Made by a program: the position numbers and the translations under genes. A stretch of DNA of 64,000 nt, from the NCBI GenBank assembly GCA_037043015.1, contig CM073329.1:368448-432447 (forward strand), written 5' to 3'. The notes beneath the pieces are model-generated. The model was not told the DNA's origin, made no database searches, and worked only from the letters and a program-made list of their open reading frames with translations. Below, in pieces: positions 18,559 to 63,760 of the stretch. The stretch comes from Bryum argenteum (lineage: Eukaryota; Streptophyta; Bryopsida; Bryales; Bryaceae). Within the stretch, counting starts at the first letter, position 1; the number at the start of each line of letters is the position of its first letter.

Positions 18559-18560
18559 GT

Positions 18561-20440: not shown

Positions 20441-20443
20441 CAC

Positions 20444-21333: not shown

Positions 21334-21337
21334 CTAG

Positions 21338-22253: not shown

Positions 22254-22320
22254 CTAGATCCTATAATTACAATTCTCAAAATATGTGGTAAAATAGAAAA
22301 CTTCACCGTGCACTCAATAA

Positions 22321-22682: not shown

Positions 22683-22686
22683 TTAA

Positions 22687-24271: not shown

Positions 24272-24275
24272 TTAA

Positions 24276-25072
24276 CACTTAGATGCCCAATATGTCAAAA
24301 AACAACAGTTTGGATAAAGGCATAAACTTTGAAGAGCCATATCTTCATCATCTAGAATTGGTTTTAGACAAAATTACTTGAATCCTGTCCCAAATCTAGT
24401 ATAGTTTGTGCGGTGAGAGTTTTATGTTCAAATTAAGAATTATGGTATTGGATTTGCAATGAAAAAGTTGGAAAATGGATGATTTTTGAAGATCTATATT
24501 CCCTTCATCCAGTGTTAAAATTCAACTTTGTTCTTTTGATAGGTTCTAACTTAAGTCTAGTTTGAGAAGTAGAAACCTTGTCCCAATTAAATGCGTTTTG
24601 AAAATAAGGCAAAAATTCCAATACAAGGGGTGTGGAATTGGACTAAGTTTTCTTTGTAAAAACTTCGGCAATTTTCAGGATTGCAAGGCTTTTATTTGAG
24701 CCAAGTTTTTTTTTTTTTTAAATGGATACTTTTGGTCCAAGAGTGTTGCAAGATGATATTCAAACAACATCCTAGTCGGTGAATTTTTCATTCCAATAGG
24801 TTTGTTAGTAGCTTTTTCACTTCAAAGTGAACATGATGAAATTTTGTACTTTAATTTGAGTACTAATATATTAAGATTTTAAAATCTATGATGCCTCATG
24901 ATTTCAAATTTGATCCACATGACCTAGAATAAGTTAATTACAAGATTGTATGGTTGAGATTTAGATAGCTCACCTTCATTTTTGTTTATGACACTTTGAA
25001 AAAACTTGTGATTCTAGGATTTCTAGTTTTTCCAAAGTGTCCCCCACTGGATCCCCCTTGGGCACTTTAGGG
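24276..25072. mobile_element. 0.80-kb TTAA-flanked element
   Basis: Flanked by TTAA at 24272-24275 and 25073-25076. The ends are CACTTAGATGCCCAA and (complement) CCCTAAAGTGCCCAA, matching at about 12 of 15 positions. Interior phrases (AGAGCCATATCTTCATCATC) tie it to 7122-8054 and 55349-56320. No coding capacity. Confidence 0.55.
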
Positions 25073-25552
25073 TTAAGATTACAAAGAGTTGATGAAACCC
25101 TAAAACGGAATTTGCCTTCACTAAAATGGATGCCATGGATTCATATCATATTGGATGGATTTGCAATTATAACTATTACATAAAGTGGACTTGATTTGGG
25201 ATGTAGTCTAACATATTTCTTCAAAATTGGACTTTGAGTGAAGAAATGTATTCACATGTAATTATATTTTTGATTTTTGCCAATTACTATTGAGATTTTA
25301 ACGTGGTTAGGCAAAGAGGTGTTGCAAATTTTAGGGTACCCTTATGACACACACTCATGTGAAGAACTAGAACTCCAAATCTACTTTAAGGCCAACATGA
25401 ATAGAGTATAGAGTATTTGTTCGTTCTTCAATACTTATGCGTTGAGGTTATAGCACCAATGGAAAAACTACTAACCTTTCCCATCGCAAATACCATGCTA
25501 GTTACTACTTAACCTACTATTTCCTAAAAGATAATCAACATCCTAATCTCCA

Positions 25553-25640: not shown

Positions 25641-25965
25641 ACCCATCATAGCGAGACATGTTAGTAGTTAAATTGTTGTATGAGTAAACTGTGTGATTAC
25701 ATTCAATGATGGTGAACTACACCATGGTGGGTGTGAGGTATCTTGCTTGAAATCCACACAACACCACAAATGGCTTACTAGGTCAATCTTAGTAATCTTC
25801 AAGGTACATTATAGCTTTAACATTCAATTTCTAATAGAGTGAACAAAAAAAATCTTATACCGAATAATTTTAGGTACTGAGAGTTGATCATTGTGAGAGG
25901 ATTAGTGTTTTTGAATTAAAAATATAATTAGATTATTTCTCAACATTTTTGAGATCGGTGTTTAA

Positions 25966-26020
25966 CCCTTAAACACCCAACCCCTCTGAAAATACACTAA
26001 AAAGCATGCCCGTTTAAGGG
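25966..26020. mobile_element. 55-bp TTAA mini-element
   Basis: Flanked by TTAA at 25962-25965 and 26021-26024, it begins CCCTTAAACACCC and ends CGTTTAAGGG. The interior CCCCTCTGAAAATACACT is the same as in the mini-elements at 10931-11002 and near 56333. It is shorter than them by loss of the second stem-like half. Confidence 0.72.
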
Positions 26021-26024
26021 TTAA

Positions 26025-27239: not shown

Positions 27240-28270
27240 CCATGACAAGGAGTTATGTATCAAATGATATACGACACATGATAGTTGGTATGCGTAAAAG
27301 TTGGCATGTCGGTGAGTGAAATTGGAAACATTGTAGGAAGGCCAAAATCGACTATTTCAAGGATTCTCAAGCGATTTAGAATTAGTGGCTCAGATTGCCA
27401 ACAAGTAGATCCGGTAGGGCGAAAAACATGAGTGATTGAGATAGGAGAAGGCTCCATAGAGAGATCTTAGTAGTAATCGTCGTGCTCCTCTTCTTGCAGG
27501 TGTGCAAAGAATGTGACATCTTCCGTGGGCATGTCAACTTTACGTAAAGAGCTTCATGAGCTTGATATTAATGATTGCATTGCGGTGAAGAAACCATTCT
27601 TGAGTGACATACACAAGGCAAAGAGGTTGGCTTTTGCAAAGGGGCACTTGCATTGGACGATTGACGATTGGAGTAATGTGATTTGGACCGATGAGTCATC
27701 CTTTGAAGTTGGAAAACCATCACGCCAAATTAGGTAATCCGGCGAAAAGCATATGAACGCTACAACTACAATTGCTTAGGACCTACATTCAAATCCGGAA
27801 GGACTTCAATTATGGTATGGGGTGCTATCATTTGGCTCTTCTAAGTCTTATTTGGTGTTAATTCCTCCTAATAGACGACCGCCAAAGACTTTGTAGAGAT
27901 AGTATCTCAAGGAGCATTAGAGCATTATTATTGGCACCATGACCACTATGAGCACCTCATTTTTAATGGAGGATGGTGCTCAAAGACATGGTAGTAATAT
28001 ACAAAAAGATTGGAGACAAAGAACTTGGATTGAAAAAGCTTGAATGGCCACCAAATTCTCTCGACCTTAATCCTATAGAGAATGTCCGGAAGCAAGTTAA
28101 AGATCAAGTGCAAACAGAGAAATAGACCACAAAACAAAGACGAAATGTGGACATCGGTCAATCGGCTTGGGAGGATATACCTCAAGAAAGCATCAAGAAG
28201 TTGATTTCAACAATGCCAACCCGGATGAAAGTCGTAATAGCGGCTCAAGGTGGTAGCACTCGATGGTAGT
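27240..28270 (+). pseudogene. Decayed Tc1-like transposase (DD34E type)
   Basis: From left to right the plus strand holds a helix-turn-helix-like EIGNIVGRPKSTISRILKRF (about 27320-27380) and WTIDDWSNVIWTDESSFEVG (first catalytic D at 27690-27692). It continues with MEDGAQRHG (second D at 27972-27974) and WPPNSLDLNPIENV (E at 28078-28080). The spacing between the last two acidic residues is about 34 after allowing one frame change, the Tc1 pattern, not the DD39D usual for plant mariner elements. Several in-frame stops and at least two frame changes break it. Ends could not be located. It would have cut and pasted DNA at TA sites. Confidence 0.8.
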
Positions 28271-28986: not shown

Positions 28987-28990
28987 TTAA

Positions 28991-29915
28991 CCCCTAAAAA
29001 TCCAGGAAAGCCGATTCGGTTTTCTGAGATTTCGGGCAGCTCATTTTAAGCATTTAAACTGATATTTTTGCCTAAGATTTTTATTGGGTGCTCCACATGC
29101 AGTAATGTGTATGTGGTAAAATTTTCAAAGTCAAATTTTAATTTTATAACCTTCATCTAGAAATTTTAGGTTTCAAGTCCAAATCGGGCAGTTTAAAATA
29201 ATTTTTTTTTTTTTATTTTTTTTTTTAGAAATATGTTCATTACCAAATTACTATTCAAATTCCAATGTGTCCGAAGTCAAAAGTTTACCAATTTTACAAG
29301 GGCAGCCTCCAAAACTTTCAAAAACAATCTTCACAATTTCTAGTAATTTTACAATTTTTTCTTTCAAAAATTGCCAAAATTCGAGATTTTGGATTTTTTC
29401 CAAGATTTTTTTCAAAATTCACATTATCATAAATGCACCTTCTCACCGTCGAGATTTTTCTCAAACTAAATATATCATACGTGGTGCTTGTTTTACTATA
29501 TGGTTGTTTTTAGACCTTCTTTCATAAAATATTTTACATTAAGGTCAAAAAGTGGAATTGGTCTCTAAAATTTTGCATGAGCATAACCAACTTGAATACC
29601 TACATGAAAAAAATGAGGGAAAAATATTTGGAATAACAATCATCAAGTTGCCCTTGGCACCATTTAGACAATGCCTCTCACGCAGTGGCAAAAAAAAAGT
29701 GTTGGTCAAACTTTGATTGTTATGATCTCACAAATGAAAAACATCCAACGGTTGAAATTTTGACCAGTCCTTTGTATACAAGTTAGGTACAAGATCTTAC
29801 GGTTCAAAGTCTAAAACCAGAAAAAAAAGTTTCTCCATTTCCCCATCTCCCAACGAAGGTGAAAAATGGCAGTTTTTGGTTCTGGAGGTCGAGGAAACCC
29901 CTGGATTTTTAGGGG
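28991..29915 (+). mobile_element. 0.93-kb piggyBac-type MITE (family 1), TTAA-flanked
   Basis: TTAA at 28987-28990 and 29916-29919 flank perfect 16-bp ends CCCCTAAAAATCCAGG. A further subterminal palindrome (GGAAAGCCGATTCGG) lies just inside the left end. The body is nearly identical to 44036-44957 in its left two thirds, and 42937-43892 and 21338-22253 are close relatives. It has no transposase, so it would depend on an enzyme such as that of the 35083-40735 element. Confidence 0.9.
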
Positions 29916-29919
29916 TTAA

Positions 29920-31818: not shown

Positions 31819-31822
31819 TTAA

Positions 31823-32081
31823 CCCCTAACTCTCCTTGTTGCAAAACGGTCTAAGTCACAAAATGTGACCTTCCTTTGGATTAAGCTCAAACAATCTCAA
31901 TCCAAGCATTATTTAAAAGATTCAACCGTAAGATCTCAAAGTTCACTTGACATTCTTCTCACATACCAAATTTGAACCGTTCATTCTTCCTCATTTGTAA
32001 GATTATAATGGTCAAAGTTGGCTGATTTTTTCTCCTGCGGGAATCTCCAAACCCGATTCGGGTTTTAAGGAGAGTTAGGGG
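31823..32081. mobile_element. 259-bp TTAA-flanked MITE (family 3)
   Basis: TTAA at 31819-31822 and 32082-32085, perfect 15-bp ends CCCCTAACTCTCCTT. The same terminus, with changes, bounds 59420-60004. No coding frame. The right subterminal GAATCGGGTTT is also seen as variants in family-1 elements, linking the families. Confidence 0.82.
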
Positions 32082-32085
32082 TTAA

Positions 32086-33490: not shown

Positions 33491-35078
33491 AGAAGGAGTA
33501 TCATAGACCGATTTCTTACATTTGAAAACATCTCCACGGTTAGAATTTCAAGAAGATTTATGGATAAGCGTTGTTTCACAGAAACTTCCAATTCATGGAC
33601 TTTGGAAAGGAAAAAAATAGCCCTTCCAGCATGCAGGGGTTAATGATTGCAAAAGTACGTGAAAGTGTTTTCATTTCTCCAGAAACCGAAAAGATTCCTG
33701 ATTATTATGATCCTCAATCTACCTCCCTGCTCTGCTCTGCTCTGCTGCAACAGCCTTCACACCCTCGGTGACCCTCCATGTACTAGCCACACATCAGACC
33801 GACCTGGGTGCACGTCATGTCACACTATTATTTGGCCATGAATCATGTCTTCCCTTTCATGACAAGATCTGACCTCACCCTGCCCACCCTAATTTTCCCC
33901 TTCTTCAATCTCCTCATACCTAGGACATGAATGCATTTTACTTTTATACTTGGCAAAGTCGGAGCTTCTCTTAACCCCTAAGGGCATTCCTAACGGACTC
34001 GCTGAAAGGATTTAGCTAAATGGAGCGACGGATGAGGAGTTGCTACAGTGGTACCTAGATAAGATCAACCTCGTGAAGATCAATGTTTAGTTAAGAACGT
34101 TGTCCCTGTCCCTGTCCCTTTATGATGCAAAGAGGCATTGTTTCGTTATCGTCAACGCTTGGATAAGATCAACGTTTTTGTCTGTTTGAAAACGTTTATC
34201 TAATCCAAGCACCACTGTAAATGTAGCACCCCATTGAATCCACACCCTTTCACGATCTTGGCTATGCTACTTGTCTGATAGGAAAAAGAAGGCTCGAGAC
34301 CCACCAAAGGTAGCGACCCTCTACAGCCTTGCTTTCTGTATGGCCATCTACCCAACTCCCACTCGAACGCGCCGTTTACTTCAATTAACTTGACTTTTGG
34401 GAGATTTCATCCAATCTCTTGGAAAACCTCAAAAGGTTTAAGCTTAGATACTTTTGAAACTTTGTCATGGTGTGGTGGAGCATGGTTAGAAGGGTGAAAA
34501 TGCAAGAGGTGCTACATTTAGCAACTCCTTTTTCCTATCTACATTCAACCCATTTTCTTATCTAGTTCTCTAAAGGCCCAGGGAGTTTGGAAAAAATTTA
34601 GATGTGTTATAAAATGTGCCTTTCATGACTCTTATGAAGTTTTTCTCAAAAGACAATATGAAGAGCTTAATGTGTGGATTAAATCGATAAGGTTGAGTTT
34701 CTTTGAATAGTTACTGTCTATTTGTAATAGATTAACCCTAAAGTCAAAACAAGTGAAATTGTGGTCATTTGACTTTGGTCAAGCTCTCAAATTACTTCAT
34801 TTAGATTTTATGAAGTTGCTACTCTAACGCATTGTAGAGTTTCCTGTACCTTTCCGGTAAGTCAATTTGGGCTTCAAAATTCTTTATACTTTAGGAGATA
34901 TTTGCAATCAAAGTTTGAAAACACCATTTGAAATGTGCCCAAAACTCCCCAAACTCCATAACATGCTCAATTATTCTCAAAATTTGTCGAAGATCAATTA
35001 AATTTCGGATACTTCACAAAAATTGAGATTAGACTTTTTTTTTTTCCAGATTTTGTTATTTTTACATGTAAATGAAGT
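33491..35078. other. Lower-copy intergenic DNA with small inverted repeats
   Basis: A CTCTG pentamer run lies near 33728-33748. Around 34048-34072 and 34195-34219, CAGTGGTACCTAGATAAGAT faces an imperfect complement, suggesting a small MITE of about 170 bp. From 34726 (TTAACCCTAAAGTC) to 35070 the DNA is related to 616-960. No protein-coding gene was recognised. Confidence 0.4.
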
Positions 35079-35802
35079 TTAACCCTTAAGCGGGCCGAAT
35101 GTTGATTTTCGACATTCTGGATGACACCACGGATGTTTGAACGCTCCCCGCCTTCTCGTCGTCGCGATTTTTCATCCATCGATTTTTGCCCTTTGTGGGT
35201 AAGTGGGGAATGTTTACTCTGGGCTTTACTGCCCTTCCAAATTTTATTTTCACAATTTACAATGGCGATTTTAGTGGCAGAATTCTTGGTTTTTTTAGGA
35301 GTTTTCTTCGTTTCGGTGTGAAGTTTTGCCATTCGGGCATTGAAATGGGGCAGTTGGGCATGGGGGCTAATTTGCAAAAGAAATATTAGTGGAAAGAGGG
35401 ATTTGGGAAGATAAGTCATAATTTGGAAAGAAGTGGGAGGATTAGTGCATAAATGCAACTGTCATGGCGGTTGAGCCATCAATTTCAGCCCCCATCACCA
35501 ATTTGAAGGGCCCAGCCTTAGAGTATTGAACACCATGAACTTATTCAAATTCAAACTTCTTGCCAACATAATTTCTCCATGCCAATCCTATCCGGCATCA
35601 ATACTCTAATGGAAATTTGCATCATATGGTAGCATCCATCAATTCACATTCAAAATTCAAACCACCACAATCACACCTAAGATATCACATCAATCAATGC
35701 CATAATTTTTTAGTTTGAATTTGAATGTACATGAGTTTTCAAACAAACTCCTCCTCATTTGTGTCCAACACACGTTCCTCCTATTTCTATCTAGCACATA
35801 TA

Positions 35803-36185
35803 ATGGAGAGTTCAAAAGAGAGGTTGCTTCATGATGCAAGGGAGGAGTTAGTAAGATGGGCTACAATTGACAAGGGTTTGGGGGAGCAACAAGTGGGTTT
35901 TTTGTTAGAGCTTTTGGATAGAGATGTGTTACTCAATTTGCCATGTTCAAACAAGGTTGAGAAACGTAATACCTCTAAGGGAATTCGTCACCTGTTCTAT
36001 CACCATGTTAGCAATATTTTAGGATGGAAGGAGAGGGTTTGTGAGGGAGATCCATTAGGAATTAGTTCTCTATTATATTCTTTGATTCACAAACGGCCTC
36101 ATCGAACACCATGCCAACAACGAGGAGCACAACACACCAAGTATCAAGGGAGATGGGGGAAGAGGAGACAATCAGCAGCTTCCAG
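35803..36185 (+). CDS. Possible first coding exon inside the piggyBac element, function unknown
   Basis: An open frame from ATG 35803 (MESSKERLLHDAREELVRW) runs 127 codons to a good donor site (CAG, then GTATGC at 36186). It is followed by stop-free but GC-biased sequence if unspliced. An acceptor (CTGCAG, exon from 37190) would join it in frame to a short charged segment ending at about 37300. The composition here is like the transposase exon, not like the GC-rich islands. I recognise no domain. It could be an N-terminal part of the transposase, a second element-encoded protein, or a captured gene piece. Confidence 0.35.
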
Positions 36186-36284
36186 GTATGCTTACATGTC
36201 ACCAAATCTTAGTAGCATAGAATTTCCATGGAAATTGGGTTTCAACGAGTGGGAGGATGGTATCCGGGGTCAACAAGAAAGAAG

Positions 36285-37900
36285 GGCGTCTCATGAGCCG
36301 CTTCCATCGGACAATGCAGAGGAAGAGATCTCGCCCAACAAGTTGTTCCATCGGAGGAACCCGGCCGACCGGCAAGGGGGGGGGCCAATGGAGCGGCGTG
36401 GATCCACCGACAGCAAGAACGACTGCAGCGACTTCGGCGGAGGAGAGAGCGACCAATGGGGCGCGGAGGGGAGCGACCGAGCGAAGCGACCCCCTGAGCG
36501 GAGCGACCCGGCCGACAAAGAGCTTGGAGGGGACCCAATGGGCCGGGGATGGGGGAGGGGCATCGGCGGCGAGCGAACTGAGTCGTCTGCGGAGTCGTTG
36601 GGGACCTCGGCCGACAAAGCAGCTTCGCCGAGGATTTCGGCAACAGGCCCGATCGCGCGACTCTCCGTCTCCACCGACGGGCGCAGCTTGATCTCCACCG
36701 AACAAATCGATCGCACCCAAACCTGTTCGACCTCCACCGACGGCCAAGACAAGACAATGACAAATGGACAACAAGGCCCAACCTCGGTGAGGGTCTCCAC
36801 CGACGGCCCAAGAACCCAAATGACGGGGAGTAACCCGCCACAAAGAACAGAGAGGGAGGATCGGGCCGGGGTCCTAGACAAGCAACGGCGTTCAAAGATC
36901 CAAATACGCACCAATCTCATGGACCCGCAACGGCCGTCATGTCATAACCGCCACAAGAGATTATCGAGCCTCTAGAAGTTAGAGTATTGCAAAGGCAACG
37001 ATAGATCCAGAAAGTGAAATTGGAGACGAAGAAGAGGAAGGATTGATTTGGTGGGTTAGGGGAACGACTACTAGCGATTTTGTGTGTCCAATGTCGTGAA
37101 GATTGATATATGTGGTGCAAATGAACAATGAAACTAAGCAAGTGCCATTTGGTGAGATTGCTCCCATCTTTGCTCACACCATACTGCAGGAAACACAGGA
37201 AGAAGAATGCTTGGGGGAACCTGAAGAACCAGGGCTTGATTCAAAGCGATTTAGAAGATGAGAGAAAGAGAGAAGAACTCGGAATTCTTACTCCTAAATG
37301 ATGACCTCGGCGGGGCGGGAGTCCCGCTCGGCGGCGACCGCGCTCCATCGCAGGAATTTCGGAGACCAACGGTCACCAAGACTACTCCCGGCCAGCCCGG
37401 CCGGCCCGGTCATTGGACCAAGCAATGGGCGCTGGAGGGCGAGACCCGCAAAGCCGGCCCGGTCATCCGACCCGGCAAGCGCTGAGGGAGGGCGCTGACT
37501 CGGCCAGCCGGCCCGGTCATCCGAAACCAACCCGGCGCGCCGGAGGACTACGACCGGCCAAAGCGGCCGGTCATCCGGCCACCCACCGAGGCGATGTTGG
37601 CTACGACCGGCCACCAGCGACTGCAACGACTCCGTGAGCGTGGCCAAGCCAGGTCGATGATTTTTTTGGATGGTGCTTGGGTGTTGGGCCCTCGGTGGGC
37701 CAAAGAATCGGGCGAGCTCAGGAGGGTTCGGCCCTCCACGCACCTCGGCGTGGTTGGGGGGGTCGACCTCGCTTCAACTCGACGGATGCTATTGGAGTGG
37801 AAGGTATGGGGAGAGGGACCCGCCAGCCCGAGCCCATTGTGGGCCACAATCAAGTCTTCCATGCGAGAGAGCCCGTTGTCGGGCACACCCCGTATCACAT
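36285..37900. other. GC-rich low-complexity islands inside the piggyBac element
   Basis: Two blocks (about 36285-36960 and 37300-37900) are strongly GC-rich in AT-rich surroundings and full of short imperfect repeats: TCTCCACCGACGG about four times in the first, CCGGCCCGGTCATCCG about four times in the second. Open frames of 140-220 codons occur in most of the six frames, as expected from stop-poor GC-rich DNA, so none is called a gene. They may be intronic, subterminal-like repeats, or part of a fast-evolving disordered N-terminus. Confidence 0.45.
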
Positions 37901-37975
37901 TCGAGTTTTGATCATACAAGGGTAAGTGGGCACATGGAAGGGGCGGGAGGAAGGGGTGTAGGAAGGGGACTAACT

Positions 37976-38248
37976 AATTGGGATGTTGGTCTAAGTTTCA
38001 AGGAATGCTTTGAAGACAAATATTGGGGGAAATTTCGATCAACTTACACTCATGATAAAGTTGTTTTCACCGGACCTAGTGAGGGTCCTCCACGTGTTTT
38101 TAGGAAAATCTCTCCCGTGTTAGACTTGTTCCACAAATTCTTCACTAGGAAGACTTTGAGGAAAATAATGAGAGAATCTAACCGGTATGCCGCTTCTATT
38201 GACCCGACCACGGGAATGACTAGGGGCCAAAAGATTGGTGGAGTTTGA
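37976..38248 (+). CDS. piggyBac transposase, N-terminal part
   Basis: The frame reads NWDVGLSFKECFEDKYWG, then ISPVLDLFHKFFTRKTLRKI and MRESNRYAA. This matches the region just before the piggyBac catalytic core, where the family usually has P-x-D-x-F-x-x-FF and E-T-N-x-YA. It reaches a stop at 38246-38248, while the catalytic frame is open from 38220 in the +1 position. The two therefore overlap and a one-base shift (or an unrecognised short intron) separates them. The upstream limit is uncertain: GTAAGT at 37922 and a CTAAG before 38000 could be splice sites. The shift lies near GGGGCCAAAA, a place prone to sequencing error. Confidence 0.6.
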   Translation, partial: NWDVGLSFKECFEDKYWGKFRSTYTHDKVVFTGPSEGPPRVFRKISPVLDLFHKFFTRKTLRKIMRESNRYAASIDPTTGMTRGQKIGGV

Positions 38249-39569
38249 CCGTGCGGAGTTGGAGGCATGGTTGGGCATTAGTATACTAATGGGGTTAAAA
38301 ATTTTACCTAACCGTAGATGCTATTGGAAAAGTAGCGAGAAATTTTTCTATTGTCATACTATTGCTAACACTATGAGCATGAAGAGGTATGAGGCTATAA
38401 CGAAGTGTTTACATATTCATGATGATTCCATGGCCCCCACGGATAGAAATGACCCTAACTTTGAGAAATTAGTGAAGTTGAGGTGGCTAATTGAGGAGGT
38501 GAGGCACCAATGTGTGTCAAACTGGAATCTTGGTCAATACGTAACCGTTGATGAGCTAATGGTGAGATACAAGGGAATCTACGGCCATGGCATGAAGCAA
38601 TACATGCCTAACAAGCCGGTAAAATTTGGATTCAAGATTTGGGCGGCCGCAAATTCGAAATCCAAGTATCTTTACAACTTCCAAGTCTACACAGGGGCGG
38701 ATTTGAAGAAAAATCTTCGAACGGCGAAACCGGGGGAGGCAAAAACGGGGTACGAAGTGGTGATGGGATTGATGGACGGATTGCATGGGCGTGGCCACGT
38801 GGTCGTCACCGACAACTTCTTCACTTCACCGAAACTCTTCGTCGATTTGCACTCCTTGGGCACATACGCCACGGGCACCGTGCGTTCCAACCGGATTGGT
38901 TTGCCGAGCGACTTGGTGGACAAGCGGAGATGGGTGAAGCAACCCCAAGGGAGCTCCGATTGGCACATGCATTGCACCGGTACGTTATGTTTTCTTGTTT
39001 GGGTAGATAAAAAACCGGTGCTTTTATTGTCAACCCATGCGGAGCCGTTGTCACCGGATCCGGAGGTGCCTCTCACGGTGCCCCGTTATACTCGTGGGAG
39101 GACGGAGCACATACCCACCTCTCCTATCCACTTGGAGTACACCCGCATGATGCGGGGTGTGGATGTGAGTGACCAACTCCGGGGAGTCTACACGGCCTTA
39201 TCCAAGACCCACAAATGGTGGCATAGGATATTCATGTTTTTGGTAGATTTATCAATTACGAATGCATGGATCATTCACAAGCGGGAGAGTTTGGATTTGG
39301 GGCTTGGTGCTATGAACCATTTAGACTTTGTTACGGCATTGGCATTCTCTCTCATGGAGAATTGGCGGCGGGACCGGATGGGCGTGGTCTCTCTATGCAC
39401 TTATACCCCGGGCACTCATGGGCTTGAGAAGGTTCCCCGAGCTAGACACCAATGTGCCACGTGCAAAGACAAAAAAAAACTTACAAATTATGTTTGCAAG
39501 GATTGTGGTGGTGCATGGTATCACATGGGGGATTGTTTCAAGAAGTCACACTTTGTACTCCGAAGGTAG
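38235..39569 (+). CDS. piggyBac transposase, catalytic core and C-terminal zinc domain
   Basis: The coordinates follow the open frame from 38235 (a TTG, not a real start) to the stop at 39567-39569: 444 codons without a break. Piggybac landmarks are all present: AELEAWLGISILMGLKILP (residues 8-25), TVDELMVRYKG with D106, VVTDNFFTS with D193, and RGVDVSDQL with D310 and D313. These correspond to the D268/D346/D447/D450 set of the insect enzyme. The C-terminus has CATC (407-410), CKDC (421-424) and H430, C434 and H439, the cross-brace Cys/His domain that binds the transposon ends. The enzyme excises and inserts at TTAA without leaving a scar. Its true N-terminus lies upstream in the next frame. 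Confidence 0.93.
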   Translation: MVEFDRAELEAWLGISILMGLKILPNRRCYWKSSEKFFYCHTIANTMSMKRYEAITKCLHIHDDSMAPTDRNDPNFEKLVKLRWLIEEVRHQCVSNWNLGQYVTVDELMVRYKGIYGHGMKQYMPNKPVKFGFKIWAAANSKSKYLYNFQVYTGADLKKNLRTAKPGEAKTGYEVVMGLMDGLHGRGHVVVTDNFFTSPKLFVDLHSLGTYATGTVRSNRIGLPSDLVDKRRWVKQPQGSSDWHMHCTGTLCFLVWVDKKPVLLLSTHAEPLSPDPEVPLTVPRYTRGRTEHIPTSPIHLEYTRMMRGVDVSDQLRGVYTALSKTHKWWHRIFMFLVDLSITNAWIIHKRESLDLGLGAMNHLDFVTALAFSLMENWRRDRMGVVSLCTYTPGTHGLEKVPRARHQCATCKDKKKLTNYVCKDCGGAWYHMGDCFKKSHFVLRR

Positions 39570-40739
39570 TGGGTTATTCATCTAAATGTAAGATCCCATT
39601 TCTTCCATCTTCTTTTGTTTATATTTGGCTTGTCTTATTTTTAATCTTTTTAGCTATGATTTTAGAATATCAATGAACTATACCAATGTGTTTTTTTTAT
39701 CGATTGAAATACTCCAGGGACTCATGCTTTGCAAGTCCAGGGACTCCCATGCGAGAGAGCACCAGGAATTCCAGCGTGGCGAGGCATGGGGGGGGGGGGA
39801 ATTTAGTAGCGACATTTGTTTTGCCAGCATGATGGCGGGGCATCGGGTCAGCGGCAAGGTGGGGGGGGGGGGTGATCACAACCTCAGCCCATTCCAGTGA
39901 CAGGCGGACGACCAGCAGCGGGCTTCGTGGCAGCTGCCGGCCCGACCCCTTCCACAACGGCAGGCTTCCTGCCAGCTGCCGGCCCGACCCGAGCGGAGCG
40001 CCCCATCACGGAGCATCGACGGCTCATAACGCTCCTCCTCTTCTGTAATCCAGCGGCCGGGGATGGGTGTGGCGGGGCATCAGATCAGCCCTTTTGGGGT
40101 TTGGTCCAAACCGTTTCTAAACCTGACAGCCCTATTAGATGGTGGCAGACACCTTTATCCGGAAGGACAGATTTTATAGTCTCTTTTAGCTATCCTCCCA
40201 TTATTTTTGTGTTTTGTGTGTTCTTCTTTCCAATCTATCTTTATAAAAGGCTGCCCCCTCTTACACCAACTCTTGTCCACGGAGGACAAAAGCGTGGGTG
40301 GGCAGCCTTGAAACACTATTGAGAAATAGCTCTTTCCTCAACCCACATGCGTTTCAAATAGTACTATGTGCAAATGGAGCTCACAATTATGTTTTTTTTT
40401 TTGGAATAGCTCCTTTGCTTCATGCCGGATATTATTGTACTTGACCAAATTTGATTTTGAGGGAATTCTTGATACGACTTTTCACTCCAAAGTCTAAACT
40501 TGGTGACTGCCCCACTATTTTCAGCCCCCCATTTTTGCCTTCAATCATGTGGATGAAGTACCCCCCCAACTCCAAATGGCATGAAACTTGGCATTTCAAC
40601 TATTTACAAAAGGGAGAAGAAGATCCTACGGTTAGAATTTAAATTTACTGCCTCTCTTTTCTTTTAACGACCTTGACATTTTTTCACAAATTGGACCCCT
40701 CTCCAACTGCCCCGATGGATTGAAACGTTTAGGGGTTAA

Positions 40740-42932
40740 AGGTAAAAGCTCACTGTTTGGATCTTCCATGCAATTATTATTCACATGCCTTTTTTATTGT
40801 TAAAGACTTGCCTTTGTGTTTGAATTTCAGGAGTTCTCCATGTGAGAAATCAAGCATTTCCTTAGATATTATAGGTTGTATGAGGGTAAAAATTGCATGG
40901 ACATATTCCTAGCTCACTTAGGAACAAGAATGTAAAGAGCCTTATACCAAATTTGCTACCAGAATGGTTTATTGGGTCCTCAAAGTACTATTTACCCTAT
41001 TTCCAACAAGCGGAAAAAACTTGTTTTCCAACTTTTAATATTGTGATTTCACAATTGGTGAGGAATTCTAATTTAAAATTTGGCATACATATGCACATAC
41101 AAGTTAAGTAGTAGATCTTCCGTTTATATACTCAAAAATACATCAAAGTTGAAATTTTTCACTTTGCATTGAAGTGGGCACGTTTTAAGGTTTTTTTTTA
41201 GTTTTGAGGCCTTTCAATTTTTGGGGTTAAATAGATCAAAACTCTAAAAAGCAGTAGAAATTACACTTTTTATTATTTGTACTTGAATTTAATACGATTG
41301 ACTAAAATTACATGTTATATGATGAAATAGAAAAGACCACTAATAACTCAAGAAGAATATTGTAATTTTTTTCTAAAAGTAATTTCCTAACACTAAGCTG
41401 ACCTTGCCCCATTTGTGTTTGAAGGCTTGGTGTGAACACTATATGATTCCAAACAAGGTCATGCAAGTTGGATGTGATTTCTCACTCACCAATTAAAAAA
41501 TAAAAAATAAAAAATAAAAAATAAAAAAAATAAAATTAAAAAAAAAATTACTTTTAGCCAGGTACACCTCCTCAAGACTCGGAACTGACAATAATATGGT
41601 TGGTTGGGCTCTTAGGAGTTGACTTCTTAAGATCCTCAACCCCTAGACGTGCTGAATGTCGAAAATACATTTTGGATCGAAGGAAGCAACTTTGAAGAGC
41701 CATGGCTTCTTCATCCAAAGTCCGGTTTGGATAAAAGTACTAGAATGAGGTCTAAAATCAAGTCTAGTTTGTGTGATAAAAATTGCAGACCTATACAACA
41801 AAGTATGAAATTATGGCAAGCATTTTAGTGAAGAATGCTCTTGTTTATGGAGCATGTTTCGTTTGTTCGTTTGGTTGGACTCTAATTTGAGTCTATTTAT
41901 AATGGTTGAAATGTTTTGATAGTTTGAGCCAAGAATTTTTTTTTGATGAATTTTGTTGAGTTGGGTGTGAATGAAATAAAGGTGAAGATCTTTCTACTTG
42001 GTGATCATTTTGTCAGATAGTCACCAAACTCATGAACAAGTGCCAATCTAATTAACTAAAGATTTTTGTTTGGCCATTTCTAACGAAGCTAAGTTCCAAA
42101 TCAATTGCGCAATCCCTTTTACCTTAATGGCATTTATTTATACATCATTGTTTGGGTTTGTAATTTACCATACAAATTAGACTTGATTTGGGAGCCTATC
42201 CTCAAGTAATTTTGTCAAGAAGGGACTTGAGATGAAGAAATCATGTCTCTTCATAGTTTCACTCTTTCATGTGAAATGTCATTTTTCAACACTAGGGATG
42301 TTTGGGGATCAAGAATAACAAGACACTTTCAATCATGAGACACTTCGACATTATGACATTTTCCTTGTTTCTTAAAGGTGCTGTATTGAAAGAGGTTGAA
42401 TCGTAATGCTTAGTTTTAGCTTGATCAAGCCTAAAATGAAAAACGATACTTTCCCGTTGTATAGGAGTCTACGAGTAGGAGACCCTCAGATTAAGCTCAA
42501 AGTATAGGTAATTAACTTATTTCTTTGAAAACTTTGATGTTGACTCCCATTCCATAGCCTCTTGAAAACACAAAAAATACAAGACAATGTCAAACCACTT
42601 AAACAAATATTTATTATCATTGAAGTTAAATTTTAGCAGACTTTCAATAGTTGGTCTCGTAAACCAAACCAAGTTTTTCGAGATGTAGTATATACGGACC
42701 CAAAATTCACAGTTAGTGAGAAATTTTACTCTTAAAATTACAAAAAAAGTAGCTATGGTACCAGAATTAGTGGAGTTGGTGATACTGTCCAACACACCAG
42801 CAAACACGGAACAATTTTGATAAAGAAGATTCTAGCCTTATTACATTGATTTTTATTCATTTTAACACTTACAAGAGCACACATTGTTGTATCTGTTGTC
42901 TTTTGTAGATTTCTGTTGTAAATTCACTACAA
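40740..42932. other. Repeat-derived AT-rich DNA between elements
   Basis: About 40740-41227 is a relative of 9660-10510 and ends GGGGTTAA at 41221-41228. About 41637 (CCCCTAGACGTGC) starts DNA related to the 7122-8054, 24276-25072 and 55349-56320 family, but no right end was found. No gene. Confidence 0.45.
41492..41550. repeat. AT-rich low-complexity run (TAAAAAA units)
   Basis: Repeated TAAAAAA units form a simple A-rich tract of about 60 bp. No further signal. Confidence 0.85.
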
Positions 42933-42936
42933 TTAA

Positions 42937-43892
42937 CCCCTAAAAATCCAGGAAAACCGATTTGGTATTCTGAGATTTCGGGCAGCTCATTTTAAGCATT
43001 TAAATTGATATTTTTGCCTAAGATTTTTATTAGATGCTCCCCATACAGTGATGTGTATGTGGTAAAATTTTCAAAGTCAAATTTTAATTTTATAACCTTC
43101 ACTTAGAAATTTTAGGTTTCAAGTCCAAAACGGGCAGTTTAAAAAAATAAAATAAAAAAAAATAAATAAATAAATATATATAATAATTTATTTTTTTTTA
43201 GAAATATGTTCATTACCAAATTACTATTCAAATTCCAAAGTATTCGAAGTCAAAAAGTTTACCAACTTTACAAGGGCAACCTCCAAAACTTTCAAAAACA
43301 ATCTTCACAATTTCTAGTAATTTTACAATTTTTTCTTTCAAAAATTGCCAAAATTCGAGATTTTGGATTTTTTCCAAGATTTTTTTTTTTCAAAATTCAC
43401 ATTATCATAAATGCAACTTCTCACCGTCGAGATTTTTCTCAAACTAAATATATCATACGTGGTGCTTGTTTTACTATATGGTTGTTACTAGACCTTCTTT
43501 CATAAAATATTTTACATTAAGGTCAAAAAGTGGAATTGGTCTCTAAAATTTTGCATGAGCATACCCAACTTGATTACCTACATGAAAAAAAATGAGGGAA
43601 AAATATTTGGAATAACAATCATCAAGTTGCCCTTGGCACCATTTAGACAATGCCCTCTCGCGCGGCAAAAAAAAAAGTGTTGGTCAAACTTTGATTGTTA
43701 CGATCTCACAAATGACAAACATCCAACGGTTGAAATTTTGACCAGTCCTTTGTATACAAGTTAGGTACAAGATCTTATGGTTCAAAGTCTAAAATCGGAA
43801 AAAAAATTTCTCCATTTCCCCATTGCCCAACGAAGGTGAAAAATGGCAGTATTTGGTTCTGGAGGTCGAGGAAACCCCTGGATTTTTAGGGT
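42937..43892 (+). mobile_element. 0.96-kb piggyBac-type MITE (family 1)
   Basis: TTAA at 42933-42936, left end CCCCTAAAAATCCAGG, right end complement CCCTAAAAATCCAGG followed by TTAA at 43893-43896 (one terminal base changed). It has private differences from 28991-29915, for example an expanded AT tract near 43143-43200. It sits inside one unit of a 40-bp tandem repeat, which preserves the pre-insertion sequence (see findings). Confidence 0.9.
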
Positions 43893-44035
43893 TTAAATCT
43901 CAAAAAACTAAAATATTGTAAATTCACTACAATTAAGTCTCAAAAAACTAAAATATTGTAAATTCACTACAATTAAGTTTCAAAAAACTAAAGTAGCCTC
44001 TGGTAGTAATTCATGTGGCCCTAGATATCTGTTAA
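43893..44035. repeat. 40-bp tandem repeat and unique flank, first copy
   Basis: Units of ATTAAGTCTCAAAAAACTAA plus AATATTGTAAATTCACTACA run through about 44000, followed by AGTAGCCTCTGGTAGTAATT to GATATCTGTTAA. The whole block is repeated at 44958-45103, showing a tandem duplication that includes an element. Confidence 0.9.
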
Positions 44036-44957
44036 CCCCTAAAAATCCAGGAAAGCTGATTCGGTTTTCTGAGATTTCGGGCAGCTCATTTTAAGCATTT
44101 AAACTGATATTTTTGCCTAAGATTTTTATTGGGTGCTCCACATGCAGTAATGTGTATGTGGTAAAATTTTCAAAGTCAAATTTTAATTTTATAACCTTCA
44201 TCTAGAAATTTTAGGTTTCAAGTCCAAATCGGGCAGTTTAAAATAATTTTTTTTAATTTTTTTTTTTTTAGAAATATGTTCATTACCAAATTACTATTCA
44301 AATTCCAATGTGTCCGAAGTCAAAAAGTTTACCAATTTTACAAGGGCAGCCTCCAAAACTTTCAAAAACAATCTTCACAATTTCTAGTAATTTTACAATT
44401 TTTCTTTCAAAAATTGCCAAAATTCGAGATTTTGGATTTTTTCCAAGATTTTTTTCAAAATTCACATTATCATAAATGCACCTTCTCACCGTCGAGATTT
44501 TTCTCAAACTAAATATATCATACGTGGTGCTTGTTTTACTATATGGTTGTTTTTAGACCTTCTTTCATAAAATATTTTACATTAAGGTCAAAAAGTGGAA
44601 TTGGTCTCTAAAATTTTGCATGAGCATACCCAACTTGATTACCTACATGAAAAAAAATGAGGGAAAAATATTTGGAATAACAATCATCAAGTTGCCCTTG
44701 GCACCATTTAGACAATGCCTCTCACGCAGCGGCAAAAAAAAGTGTTGGTCAAACTTTGATTGTTACGATCTCACAAATGACAAACATCCAACGGTTGAAA
44801 TTTTGACCAGTCCTTTGTATACAAGTTAGGTACAAGATCTTATGGTTCAAAGTCTAAAATCGGAAAAAAAATTTCTCCATTTCCCCATTGCCCAACGAAG
44901 GTGAAAAATGGCAGTATTTGGTTCTGGAGGTCGAGGAAACCCCTGGATTTTTAGGGT
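44036..44957 (+). mobile_element. 0.92-kb piggyBac-type MITE (family 1), mosaic copy
   Basis: TTAA at 44032-44035 and 44958-44961. The left part up to roughly 44600 matches 28991-29915 almost base for base (GGGTGCTCCACATGCAGTAA, TTTTTAGACC). The right part carries the private variants of 42937-43892 (ATACCCAACTTGATTACC, GGCAGTATTTGG, AGGGTTTAAATC). It is therefore a recombinant between two family members. Confidence 0.9.
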
Positions 44958-45103
44958 TTAAATCTCAAAAAACTAAAATATTGTAAATTCACTACAATTA
45001 AGTCTCAAAAAACTAAAATATTGTAAATTCACTACAATTAAGTTTCAAAAAACTAAAGTAGCCTCTGGTAGTAATTCATGTGGCCCTAGATATCTGTTAA
45101 AAC
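44958..45103. repeat. 40-bp tandem repeat and unique flank, second copy
   Basis: Essentially identical to 43893-44035, ending at GATATCTGTTAA, but followed here by AACTAGAC with no element at the TTAA. This is the unoccupied version of the junction that holds an element at 44036. Confidence 0.9.
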
Positions 45104-45772: not shown

Positions 45773-48700
45773 TCAGGATTCTTCTGCTGCGGGCACATTT
45801 GCGCGATCAAAGTGCGACCGTAGGCCAATCCAACACTTGTAATACTCAGGATCCAACTGTGGACAATTGAGCGCCCAAGGAGTCACACGAGGAATCAAAG
45901 ATGACTCGAACATAAAAGCTAATGCATGATCTGGTATTTTGGATGGTTTTGGGTCCTCGCAGATGGTTCTCTGCACACACACACACACAGTATACCATTG
46001 TCAACTATCACACTAACAGCATTTGCTAGTCATGAACGTTACCATCAATAAGCAAATATGCTGCCGAGGGCAGCTTAACATCTCTTGAAACAAGCCTTTC
46101 TTCAAGCATTCAAGGTTTCAGGACAAGATAGCTCACATCATGCTACCTGGAGTCTATCCATCCATCAATCACGTAAGGTGGCAAGATATTAGATGATAAT
46201 TAGACCATGAAAATCCAGGTGATGATCTTTTACTTGATCAATTTGGAAGTAAATGAAACTGGAATGGATGGGCTAGATGCATGGAAAGGAGGAACCCACC
46301 TCATAGGTAGCAGTGTCTACACCATGAGGAGTCATGCAATTGTGAAGACTTGCTCCTCCCGGAATGAATCCATCGGCCTTTCCCTGTGACAATAAATAAG
46401 ACCCGCAAATTAGTCGAACATGGATCTCGACTATCTCCGCTCTGCAGCAGGGATACTGTTCGGAATTACCCTGTTCCTCTACTATACTGTACAACAATGA
46501 ACTTGCCTGGCAGTGTTGATGCTCACCTCATACATGCCGTAGATTAGTCCCATGAACTCGCTCATGCAATTCCGGTGAAAGTAGGGCGGTCGAAACGTGT
46601 GCTCGGCAACAGACCACCTCGGCGGAAATACCACGAAGTCTACCACAGCGACGCCAGGCTTCTCCGACGGTACAGTCAATACTGCATACACAATTAACGT
46701 CAACAAGGTCGTTTGCACGTTGTGGATCATATCGACTGCAGATGCCCAGGTTATCAACCATTTGAAATTATTCCCTTCCCTCACCTGTATTGATGGAAGG
46801 ATCCGCGTGATCGAACAGGACAGTGTTGAAGGGGCAGAACTTCTTCAGATTGTACTACATTCCCACACACCCACGAAACACTCATCAATCGTCTGCACTA
46901 TGGTACTCCTACGCCCGCACCCAAATTACCGCAGTAATCACTTGCCTAAAAGTCCTATGACTTTGGAGACATAAACCATGTACCATATCAAGTGTTAAAG
47001 TGCAGTTTGTCTGCAAACTTAGTTTTCAAGTAGCAATATCAGATCTACAACTACTCTAGATGTAGAAGTGGAAGTTTCAGAATCTGAGGGCAAAGCGTGG
47101 ACGATGAGAAAAGAGGGTGACTCAAAACTTGACAGGAGGGCTACACCATCATATTGTAGGCGAAATTTCAGAACCTTCGCCTCGGATTCGACATTCAAGC
47201 AATAATAAAAGCCAGAATATCATGTCTCACCTTGTACGGGGCATAATTTCCGTGCCAAGCAACGACATTAAAGGGAGAAAAGTCTTGCTTCGCATCAAAG
47301 AGTGCGCCACCAAATTTATGGATCACAGTGAAACCACGTGTTCCATAGCTTCTCTCCTCAAACCAAGCTTTAGGAGTGAGGAAGTCTCGAGGGTCTGCTA
47401 GTCCATTTGCGCCTGTACATCTCACCGCATCAAACCTCTAATTTCGTCATTTTTCCCTTCTCGACAGCCAATTTTGGAGTGGGCCAGTATTGTATGCTCA
47501 AAAGTGTCAAACTGCAATTGCCAAAGCAAGAATTCAACTTGAGATTGCAGGGTTTCAGAAAAGTGGGAGGAAGTCCTTACCGATTGGGCCGAGGTCGGGT
47601 AACTGAAAATGACCACTGAAGACTTCGACGACATAACCTCTTGAAGGACCATCCGGTAGCTCAATAGCAAAGCGTATACCCAGCTGTAATACCACGAGCT
47701 CCCCGGGCTTCACCTCTAATCGGCCCATCTCCGTCTTGATCCATAAGCCTGAACACCATCCCATCACAACTACCACAATCACTACTCCCCACCAGATTCA
47801 CACTCAGAAAGTTGGACTATTTCTTTCGGATGCGGCCTGCATGCGATTAAACACTTCAGACAAATGGGAATCAAGACATCCATACGTCATTCATAGCAAG
47901 CTTGCCTAGTAGAACACACCAGTATAGCAACTAAGCAGTGCCGATGACTCAGTTGCAAGTATGATGTACCGAACACCTACAATGTGAATGGTAACTCCTA
48001 TTGAATGCATTTTAAGTTGGTTCTAATTACATAAGATGCCTCCATGATATTGGACAAGTAGACTAACAGTGCCTGCACCAGTAGTGTGAGGTCCTCTGAT
48101 CGCCAGCGCCAACCAAGTAGCAGCGCTTAGCACCCGTGAAGTCTTATTTTAACTTCCTATTCCACATGTGAGACACAACAGATCCGATTCCCTTCCAGCC
48201 GGGTAATTCAAGTGCCGCTACTCGGTTGGTTACATAGACCAACTATACAAATTAGACCAATTTGAAAAGTCAGAAGGAAAGGTGAAACTTTACGTCCTAG
48301 TTGTGGGACAATAAGAAGATCCCCATCTGCGTTGGCAAATGCACAACCCTCCATGGAGATGTTCGCAGTATACCTAAAGACACGTCACAAGTGTGTGTTC
48401 ATAAGACAAAGATACAGAATTATACATTGGCATCTGTAAGGATTGTAATAGAAAGCGGTAAAAGGAAGTGAAAGAAGCATATCAATGATCACGAAGACTT
48501 CAACCATGCGGCAGTGCAGAAATTGTCATGAGCTCAAGCTTGTGTTGTCCAAAAAATATGAGGAGCTCAAGAATGTGCATAACAGAAATGAGAAATGAGA
48601 AGGAAATTCTCAAGGGAATGGAAGAAGACGAAAGGGAGAGAAAGAGAAGGAATATACATACATGTGGACGGCATAACCGTGACGCAAGAACGGGCTCCCA

Positions 48701-49847
48701 GCCCCACAAATGGTGTACAGTCCATCAATAAAGCTGAGCTGTGACTGGGGAATAGGGGGAGGTTTCCATCTGAGTTGTGTGGGCGTTACAGATGCAGCCG
48801 AAGTAGAACTGAAATCGCTCACGAGCCGTGGGTTGGTCGGCTCACGGGGATGAAACGGCTCATGCGTAACGGATGGCTTGATTCGATACAACCAGCTGTT
48901 ACCAACCAACCAACCAGTAGACATCGTCAATCTCATTCTTCATCATCTCCAGCACTCCAGGCATCCAAACGTGTCAAGCATCACATTCCTACACGGACAC
49001 TCCCTTGAATGCTTTCGCCACAGGTTTTGGCTGGAGTAGCGACACAGTAGATTCACATGTGAGGACATCTAATTACTTCAAAATGCGCTCCATTACACTT
49101 ACGTTCCATTGAACTTTTATTCAAGGCTTTTGTACGATCTAACCAGCAACACTGCGGTGAGTATCCTTTTCAGTGAACCAACCAGAGTGAGGACGAGAGA
49201 GATCCAGGAGAAGTTCAGTCAAGGAATGCTATAATCTCGCATAATCAATAACACATTCAACCATCAGTAACGGTATGAATTTGCGTAGGGTTCCTTTTCT
49301 GCAGGTCAAGCAGGGTATCACAAGCACCGATTCTATCAGTCAGAGTTATCTTGGCAATTGCACACATATAATATAATGCTCGACAACAAGTAAGAAGGTA
49401 GACTTAACAAAGAACTTCCTCTCGTCTATTACACAAGGGTACCAATTTTTTATAACGAGTCGAAAAATATAATACTCAAAAACATAAAGCAGTACATTCC
49501 TAAAACTGTAAAAACATCTCTCGGCATTTGAAAAACTTTGCAGATCGTATGTAAGAATCACTAGATGAAATTGATGTAAATCACACATCAGATGAGGGAG
49601 TGCAAATTTACCTGCGCTGGTTATGCGAACGGGGAACAGTAAATGCAGTGCCGGAGATCTGTTCCGCGTAAAGGCCATAGGGGCACTTCAGGGGGCTGTT
49701 CTGTCCCACGGGCAGCGCCCCCTTCAACACCTCCGTCGAGAAGTGGTTACCGAATCCACGCTGATACTCCAACTCTCCAAATCCCACGTCAGGCTCTTTC
49801 TCTGTTCTCACTTCCAACTCCTTCATTGCTCCATTCATTCTCTCCAT
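45773..49847 (-). CDS. HGD: Homogentisate 1,2-dioxygenase, nine coding exons, intact
   Basis: Exons on the minus strand: 49847-49612, 48895-48662, 48373-48294, 47748-47581, 47412-47231, 46854-46785, 46681-46527, 46383-46300, 45970-45773. All introns are GT-AG, every join keeps frame, and the product is 468 residues (Arabidopsis about 461). The enzyme opens the ring of homogentisate to maleylacetoacetate in tyrosine breakdown, using Fe(II) and O2, and competes with vitamin E and plastoquinone synthesis. The sequence runs from [16 protein letters not shown] near the N-terminus through [10 protein letters not shown] (H316, equivalent to human H292) and [11 protein letters not shown]. Iron ligands are H359 and E365, with H395 in MTPHG. 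ATG 49847 is the first after an in-frame stop at 49871-49869. The C-terminal end is divergent (ANVPAAEES). No organelle-targeting peptide is evident, so the cytosol is likely. Confidence 0.96.
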
Positions 49848-51947: not shown

Positions 51948-54661
51948 CAATTTGAAAAGTCAGAAGGAAAGGTGAAACTTTACGTCCTAGTTGTGGGACA
52001 ATAAGAAGATCCCCATCTGCGTTGGCAAATGCACAACCCTCCATGGAGATGTTCGCAGTATACCTAAAGACACGTCACAAGTGTGTTCATAAGACAAAGA
52101 TACAGAAAGAGACATTGGCAGCTGTAAGGAGTGTAATAGAAAGCGGTAAAAGGAAGTGAAAGAAGCATATCAATGATCAAGAACACTTTAACCATGTGAC
52201 AAATGGCAAAAGCGTCATGAGCTCAAGCTTGTGTTGTCCAAAAAATATGAGGAGCTCAAGAATGTGCATAATGAAATGAGAAATGAGAAGGAAATTCTCA
52301 AGGGAATGGAAGAAGACGAAAGGGAGAGAAAGAGAAGGAATATACATACATGTGGACGGCATAACCGTGACGCAAGAACGGGCTCCCAGCCCCCACAAAT
52401 GGTGTCTGATCCATCAATAAAGCCGAGTTTGTGTGGATCGGGAATAGGGGAGGTTTCCATCCGAGTTGTGTGGGCGTTACTGATGCAAAACCGAAGTAGA
52501 ATCGAAATCGCTCACGAGCCGTGGGTTGGTCGGCTCACGGGGATGAAACGGCTCATGCGTAACGGATGGCTTGATTCGATACAACCGTTTGTTACCAACC
52601 AACCAACCAAAGAGACATCGTCAATCTCATTCTTCATCATCTCCAAGACTCCAGGCATCCAAACGTGTCAAGCATCACATTCCTACACGGACACTCCCTT
52701 GAATGCTTTCGCCACAGGTTTTGGCCGAGTAGCGACACAAGAGATTCACATGTGAGGACATCTAATTACTTCAAAATGCGCTCCATTACACTTACGTTCC
52801 ATTGAACTTTTATTCAAGGCTTTTATACGATCTAACCAAAGAACACACTGCGGTGAGTATCCTTTTCGGTGAACCAACCAGAGTGAGGACGAGAGAGATC
52901 CAGGAGAAGTTCGGTCAAGGAATGCTATAATCTCGCATAATCAATAACACATTCAACCATCGAAGAACGGTATGAATTTGCGTAGGGTTCCTTTTCCGCA
53001 GGTCAAGGGGTATCACAAGCACCGATTCTATCGATCGAGTTATCTTGGCAATTGCACACATATAATATAATGCTCGACAACAAGTAAGAAGGTAGACTTA
53101 ACAAAGAACTTCCTCTCGTCTATTACACAAGGGTACCAATTTTTTATAACGAGTCGAAAAATATAATACTCAAAAACATAAAGCAAGACATTCCTAAAAA
53201 TCGTAAAAACATCTCTCGGCATTTGAAAAACTTTGCGGATCGTATGTAAGAATCACTAGATGAAATTGATGTAAATCACACATCGATGAGGGAGTGCAAA
53301 TTTACTCGTTTGGTTATGCGAACGGGGAACGAGAAATGCAATCTGGGAGATCCATTCGCGTAAAGGCCATAGGGGCAGGGTACATTTCGTCCCACGGCGC
53401 GCCCCTTCAACACCTCCGTCGAGAAGTGGTTACCAAATCCACGCCGATACTCCAACTCTCCAAATCCCACGTCGGACTCTTTCTGTTCTCACTTCCAACT
53501 CCTTCATTGCTCCATTCATTCTCTCCATTGCCCTCCTATATTCATTCACTCACAAAGATTGTGAATGCCATCACCGCACACCACATTTCGCAGACCGCAT
53601 GGCACGGCTTGCCAATCCTTTTCGATGCATCTTATTTCCTAGCCTACATCCGGATTTGAGAACTAGATTCCATGAAATCCTCGAAACTACGACGTTCTAT
53701 ACGCCTTGACTCTCAAAGGCATGCATGCACCTCTCGGTCTGGGAATTAGAATCGATCGCCGCAATTATCTCTGCTCGGGTAAAAAGGCGACATGATTCCA
53801 AGACTCCATACTGGGGGCGCACACTTGATTCGGGTGGAGTTAAACCTAGACAATCGCAAATAATGAAATCTCGCGGTGGGCAGGAGTTGAGAGCCGAGTA
53901 ACCGCCCAATTAAATCTGCGGCCTTTCAAACCTAAAGGTTCACGAGGGCTTTATCTTCTACCCGCATAGAAACTGCGTCTGCGAAAGGTTTAGGCTAATA
54001 CTTAGTGGGCATTACATAGAAGCAAACTCAAGGATTTAGATCATGGATTCTTTTTCTCTAGACACAAGTGAAGCAAGGCTCTATATCTTTGGAGGAATCA
54101 AATCTCGCAACAACTAGTAACCCTGGCTTTACATGGCGGAAAGTGGTGCGTGAATTTTCTTGGTGCATCCGTGAAACCAACGAACGAAAAACGAACAAAA
54201 TCAATTATGAAGGGGATGAAAAACTGCTCCGGCGTAGAATTTGATAAAGCACTGTACTATTGGAAGATTCACAATTGCGCATGAGAAGGAAATACTAGAA
54301 TAGAATAGAATAGAAGAGAATAAATGCGATGGCTACGAGTGTAGAATTACAGCGCAGATCGCTTGACAAAGATGTGACTTTCTAGAGTTGTGAAGGCTCC
54401 TGAAGCTCCGGATAGACGTAATGATGAAAAGCAACAGAGCACGATCGCAAGGAGCGAGCGTAAAACACAAAGCAAAGCGCGATCGGGAGGAAGGGAGAGC
54501 AGAGTAGAGTAGAGTAGAATTGGAAGACAAGACGAGACGAGAGAATCGGTGCGAGACCCACCGAGAATTGAGCGTGCGAGAGAATTGGCGGAGGCGGGTA
54601 GGAGACTTGGAAGGCGTCTTGAAAAGGATGATGGGGCGTTGGTAGTTGGAATTGACGCAAA
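51948..54661 (-). pseudogene. Truncated tandem copy of homogentisate dioxygenase (exons 1-3 and upstream)
   Basis: Matches 48258-50983 throughout. The exon-3 copy (52063-51984) is unchanged over 80 nt. The exon-2 copy (about 52586-52350) has lost the AG acceptor, has an extra C near 52390 and several small changes that break the frame. The exon-1 copy (about 53530-53315) has multiple indels, so [11 protein letters not shown] is not readable. Exons 4-9 are absent. As written it cannot encode the enzyme. Most differences from the intact copy fall at CAG or CTG triplets, so part of the damage may be sequencing error. Confidence 0.88.
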
Positions 54662-55110: not shown

Positions 55111-55341
55111 AAAATTGCGTGCACTCGCAACATTCCAGTAGATTTTCTGTGCTGAAAATTGCGCCATTATAGGACACCTTACCATATCATATCCGCACCT
55201 TTCACTTTTCTCATTCTCATTGCTCCTCACTTATTATTTGTGACGTTCCTGTCTTACCCACCCTTCCCTTGCGTGTCTCAATATTCCTTCCCTTCCTTTC
55301 ATGTCATTTACGTGATGCTATATTCTTGACTAATGGATTAA

Positions 55342-56389: not shown

Positions 56390-56393
56390 TTAA

Positions 56394-62821: not shown

Positions 62822-62823
62822 TA

Positions 62824-63758: not shown

Positions 63759-63760
63759 TA

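Follow-up and report, generated by a model that had tools for sequence, protein, structure and literature searches.

A probable resident piggyBac-superfamily transposon with a broken transposase gene in the moss Bryum argenteum

Table 2 of one survey of transposable elements (PMC4438587, accessible passages) names PiggyBac as one of the transposon superfamilies present in every group studied, among them land plants, and a fern assembly was reported to contain 1230 PiggyBac copies amounting to 122 kb (PMC6890710, accessible passages). Other sources, as far as their accessible passages go, state the occurrence of piggyBac as plants, fungi, and animals (PMC10140906), or call it occasional in plants and name red algae (PMC12732532, a 2025 paper whose reference titles include animal-derived piggyBac as a marker-excision tool in plants). 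The element described here lies at 35083-40735 of a 64,000-nucleotide stretch of contig CM073329.1 from the moss Bryum argenteum, hereafter the window. It agrees with both surveys in placing the superfamily in land plants, whereas the accessible passages of PMC4438587 and PMC6890710 are confined to an entry in a table and a number of copies and do not describe the structure, ends or empty sites of any element. No land-plant piggyBac described with its ends and empty sites was found among the matches listed, a search of accessible passages with subscription papers and preprints outside its scope. As piggyBac in land plants is already in print, the moss element belongs to a known kind of transposon, met here in an unusual host and among a local population richer than first noted.

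The interval 35083-40735 is very probably a DNA transposon of the piggyBac superfamily that is resident in the genome of a land plant and has probably become defective. It shares with the superfamily, represented here by piggyBac (PDB 6x67) and piggyBat (9c0f), the catalytic core with four aspartates, ends starting with CCC and the flanking TTAA, and differs in its land plant host and its broken gene. In the proposed mechanism, the transposase would bind the CCCYTAARCG ends together with a subterminal palindrome, its catalytic aspartates would cut the element out, and the element would then insert at TTAA and duplicate it.

Transposase core, ends and insertion site

The transposase core, comprising the catalytic domain and a C-terminal cysteine/histidine domain, occupies a frame of 449 codons from stop to stop at 38220-39569 on the forward strand. 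Second-order Markov shuffling of the region (2000 replicates) gave frames of at most 242 codons, and the codon periodicity of the core reaches a z of 11.1. A search with 38235-39566 matched Pfam DDE_Tnp_1_7 over profile positions 34-349, with an E-value of 3e-68 and 231.1 bits against a cutoff of 22.4. In the PDB, the core matches piggyBac (6x67; 6.7e-26) and piggyBat (9c0f; 1.7e-18), to which it is only 26-29% identical. In an alignment of three sequences (the core and the piggyBac and piggyBat segments), the residues D106, D193, D310, and D313 (numbering starts at 38235) do not vary, and we take these four aspartates to be the catalytic ones. At the C-terminus, a CxxC...CxxC...H...C...H pattern aligns with the same stretch of piggyBat, with which the moss protein has this feature in common; the stretch searched alone with HMMER gave an insignificant score. 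The first-pass annotation had proposed a near-complete piggyBac transposase with four aspartates and a C-terminal cysteine/histidine domain, a description borne out by the Pfam and PDB matches and the invariant residues. No relatives of the transposase were found in viral contigs, prokaryotic genomes, phages or plasmids. A single-sequence structure prediction of the core reached a predicted local distance difference test (pLDDT) score of 30.8 and was not used.

The element measures 5653 bp excluding the TTAA on either side and is read on the forward strand. From left to right, its ends consist of a TTAA duplicate at 35079-35082, the sequences CCCTTAAGCG and, at the far end, CGTTTAGGGG, and a second TTAA at 40736-40739. 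The right terminal inverted repeat, read on the reverse strand as CCCCTAAACG (40726-40735), agrees with CCCTTAAGCG at 8/10 positions; both repeats are short and CCC-starting. The left terminal sequence (35083-35123, forward strand) combines CCCTTAAGCG with the palindrome AATGT..ACATT, which lies in a stretch common to this end and a small element family, D. Folded as single-stranded DNA, 35083-35130 gives a z of -2.0, and 5/200 shuffles fold equally well.

When the two flanks are joined with a single TTAA, they align with three related repeats of the window that carry no such interruption. The agreement is 74% of 504 columns with the repeat at 61658-62156 and 70% of 501 columns with that at 9418-9910, both gap-free at the junction, and 65% of 402 columns with the repeat at 716-1111, which has gaps at the junction. 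Since the joined flanks align through related repeats in the window, the element lies within a family of repeats that belongs to this genome. The ends between TTAA sites put forward earlier for 35083-40735 therefore stand. The hosting repeat family, whose members are 65-74% alike, comprises 716-1111, 9418-10311, 34792-41000 minus the element, and 61658-62156.

Family D and other small TTAA-type elements

The 40 bases following TTAA at the left end of the big element were compared with those at all 745 other TTAA ends of the window. The best of these is the right end of small element D at 56324 (32/40), and the similarity extends to 80% over 41 bp with an E-value of 5.9e-4. At these ends, D and the big element have their terminal ~45 bp in common, palindrome included. 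The second and third best ends, at 7118 (26/40) and 24272 (22/40), belong to older relatives of D, while the next ones, at 26024 and 22686, score 20/40 and are both ends of small elements.

D itself spans 55345-56324, TTAAs included, and is inserted in an end of an 80-bp miniature inverted-repeat transposable element (MITE) that occupies 55338-56393 with D counted in. Joining the flanks of D through a single TTAA yields an 80-bp sequence that agrees at 72/80 positions with the intact MITE (10927-11006), which has a TTAA at that very place. Because the joined flanks restore the MITE with TTAA at the site, D entered at a TTAA, which was duplicated in the process. The two older relatives, 7118-8058 and 24272-25076, have TTAA at both ends and resemble D in pieces, at 69-72% and 72-75%, respectively. 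The first-pass annotation had proposed to judge its reading by TTAA-bounded copies elsewhere in the genome, a check that it passes within this window, where TTAA-bounded relatives of the element's end are present. These similarities suggest that family D was mobilised by this transposase or by one closely related to it. PiggyBac-type MITEs are likewise short elements with CCCYTAA-like ends between TTAAs, and D resembles the ~45-bp terminus of a transposase-bearing element; the present case differs in its land plant setting, in the 20.3% coverage reached together with the big element, and in that the piggyBac link was tested for D only.

Around the big element, 12 smaller elements with TTAA-type ends are new to the description of this locus. 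Together with the big one they cover 12,994 bp, or 20.3% of the window, and the small ones alone account for 7,333 bp; as some ends are decayed, the membership of the less regular small elements is a matter of judgement. The motif TTAACCCTTAAGCG matches 21 times with up to three mismatches (5.9 expected) and TTAACCCCTAAACG 39 times (5.5 expected), and 0/100 shuffles reach either count. The two match lists overlap, and several matches are copies of one family. Telomere-like CCCTAAA was considered as a source of the excess and rejected, many of the motifs being opposed pairs at element ends. No Rfam family matched at gathering thresholds.

TTAA pairs up to 7 kb apart were further screened for an inverted match of at least 12/14 bases. 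The test was passed by 12 pairs, seven of which begin with CC and represent six distinct elements, since one pair combines an end of one copy with an end of its neighbour. In 30 Markov shuffles, 0 CC-starting pairs occurred and the mean number of pairs was 0.17. For each of seven other 4-mers, the count lay between 2 and 9 pairs, with 0 CC-starting ones, so that the CC-starting class stands out and not the total pair number. Of the five non-CC TTAA pairs, three fall within longer inverted repeats.

Apart from D and its relatives, the small elements are of several kinds. The intact 80-bp MITE at 10927-11006 is TTAA-bounded and has CCCTTAAACGTCA ends, as established by the pair test and by comparison with the D site, and a 63-bp relative was aligned to it at 25962-26024. 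A motif search found a 370-bp element with CCCTTAAACG ends at 22317-22686, flanked by ATAA on the left and TTAA on the right. The pair test also identified a 267-bp TTAA-bounded element (31819-32085) with perfect 15-bp inverted ends, or 19 bp with TTAA. Family B has a unit size of ~930 bp. Its element at 28987-29919, found by the pair test and by alignment, has TTAA on both sides and CCCCTAAAAATCCAG ends, and alignment added three further copies. That at 44032-44961 is 97.6% identical to it and has a right end of TTAA followed by ACCC; that at 42933-43896 is 91.9% identical, with right end and flank as in the 44032 copy; and that at 21334-22257 (reverse strand) is 95.5% identical. The 42933 and 44032 copies have the same right flank, so one of them may have arisen by local duplication. 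The copy at 21334-22257 has CTAG instead of TTAA on both sides, a possible non-standard target site. Empty sites were sought with 300-bp flanks for eight small loci (10 candidate intervals, as D was tried with three alternative bounds), which covered three of the four B copies and left out the 21334 copy and the two older D relatives, and none were found; the 80-bp site of D came from the separate comparison with the intact MITE.

The CCC ends and symmetric 4-bp flanks suggest a link between family B and this transposase, and the other small families (the 80-bp MITEs, B, and C) may likewise have used piggyBac transposases. A less likely reading assigns part of the small TTAA families, chiefly B, to a different superfamily, for example Tc1/mariner with its TA targets. 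B has no similarity to the big element at an E-value cutoff of 0.01, TA is the centre of both TTAA and CTAG, and a decayed Tc1-type transposase lies at about 27300-28086. On the other hand, the ends of B start with CCC, and flanks that are symmetric over 4 bp (TTAA, and CTAG at 21334-22257) are more simply explained as a 4-bp duplication.

The decayed Tc1/mariner-type transposase (27300-28086, forward strand) is interrupted by stops and frame changes, and 27477-27734 matches HTH_Tnp_Tc3_2 with an E-value of 3.8e-11. Its sequences IWTDESSFEVGK and WPPNSLDLNPIEN are presumably motifs of this transposase type, which is known mainly from animals and fungi.

Further repeats in the window include a large inverted repeat at 18464-18893 and 20114-20538, with blocks of 155 and 245 bp that are 99-100% complementary and an inner block of 122 bp at 98%; this inverted repeat holds a 24-bp tandem repeat. 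A second inverted repeat (62819-63129 and 63453-63763) has arms of 311 bp, 93% complementary and 323 bp apart. In direct orientation, 48258-49514 and 51948-53208 contain two blocks (139 and 172 bp) that are 97-100% alike and recur at a distance of about 3.7 kb, which may reflect a recent duplication.

The break in the transposase gene

The transposase gene is broken once, by a frame change within 38198-38240 on the forward strand, an interval placed from the frames and the Pfam profile positions of the two pieces. This agrees with the single frame shift that had been proposed between the core and its N-terminal part. The N-terminal piece runs from an ATG at 37934 to 38221 on the forward strand, in a frame differing from that of the core, and was assigned through a weak DDE_Tnp_1_7 match. 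As the match covers profile positions 4-28 and the core continues with 34-349, the two pieces are collinear. The break may be a mutation, a sequencing error or a splice boundary, and because of it this copy of the element is probably inactive.

Upstream of the transposase, the element contains 2.85 kb with GC-rich (guanine plus cytosine) blocks and a long open frame at 35803-36975 on the forward strand, which may be a second open reading frame, a 5' exon or a product of chance. The GC-rich blocks within the element (60-70% GC) lie at 36300-36900, 37300-37800, and 39750-40070, and one of them contains 53-bp tandem units at 37400-37524.

The transposase would be complete as a spliced gene if the break were a splice boundary and 35803-36189 of the upstream frame its 5' exon. 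The AT-rich part of this frame has 188 stop-free codons, a length reached in only 10/2000 shuffles, so it is more open than most of them, and donor-like sequences occur at 37922 (AGGGTAAGT) and near 36188 (CAGGTATGC). Against this, the upstream frame has no match in Pfam, NCBIfam or PHROGs, a best PDB E-value of 0.02 and no clear codon periodicity, while the break interval of 43 bp is below the usual length of plant introns. Splicing is therefore an unlikely explanation, and a resident element with a broken gene is preferred.

Residence in the plant genome

The window contains a MYB gene at 5594-3473 (reverse strand) with a SHAQKY-type MYB repeat (Myb_DNA-binding, E 1.1e-12) and a CCHC zinc knuckle with an E-value of 0.016, below the cutoff. 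We take this combination of CCHC and SHAQKY-type MYB to be a land-plant architecture; by this gene, the host is a land plant.

Several observations weigh against a resident piggyBac transposon as described. No second transposase copy was found in the window. The N-terminal piece is weakly recognised, as 38123-38197 matches DDE_Tnp_1_7 with an E-value of 0.033, below the cutoff; it has no transposase match in the PDB, and its periodicity (z 0.5) gives no clear signal. The 8/10 terminal repeat fails the 12/14 test and is too weak on its own to prove the ends, and the right end of the big element agrees with the left end of D at 15/30 positions, with hardly any resemblance outside the terminal repeat. 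The best two of the empty-site repeats (61658-62156 and 9418-9910) are only 70-74% alike and lack TTAA at the exact column; they therefore fix the insertion point and a site length that occurs once, while the TTAA duplicate is read from the two flanks of the element. Finally, at 5.65 kb the moss element is longer than intact beetle piggyBac elements, given as 2074-3465 bp in the accessible passages of PMC12732532.

A domesticated piggyBac-derived host gene, in place of a transposon, would fit the length of the 449-codon frame and its codon periodicity. After domestication, transposon genes have as a rule lost their ends and their frame has stayed open, whereas this frame sits within TTAA-bounded ends at a defined insertion point and contains a frame change, which makes domestication very improbable. 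PiggyBac is best known from animals, but an origin from contamination with animal or fungal DNA, or from a chimeric assembly, is hardly credible and was rejected, given that both flanks come from one repeat family that is uninterrupted at three more sites of the window and aligns through the junction, that the element's end resembles those of small elements elsewhere in the window, and that a plant MYB gene lies ~30 kb away.

The first-pass annotation had also suggested that this lineage carries, or recently carried, an active piggyBac. The joined flanks, the shared ends, and the MYB gene place the element in the plant genome; an active copy is a different matter, as the present one is broken. 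A working copy may have existed fairly recently, to judge from the 92-98% identity within family B, which is linked only indirectly to this transposase.

A wider reading is offered tentatively. The plant lineage may host a piggyBac population that is large, has persisted for long, and was active until recently, with transposase copies and several MITE families filling a sizeable share of the genome, and an autonomous element that has an extra upstream frame. Together with the Tc1-type remnant, this would portray a plant colonised, perhaps horizontally, by DNA transposons usual in animals and fungi. If the density in the window is typical, piggyBac-type elements would be a main DNA transposon class of this genome. 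A plant genome that has a piggyBac of its own alongside small elements that match it would bear on the classification of plant DNA transposons, and would matter for finding plant-borne TTAA transposases and for testing the transfer of transposons between kingdoms.

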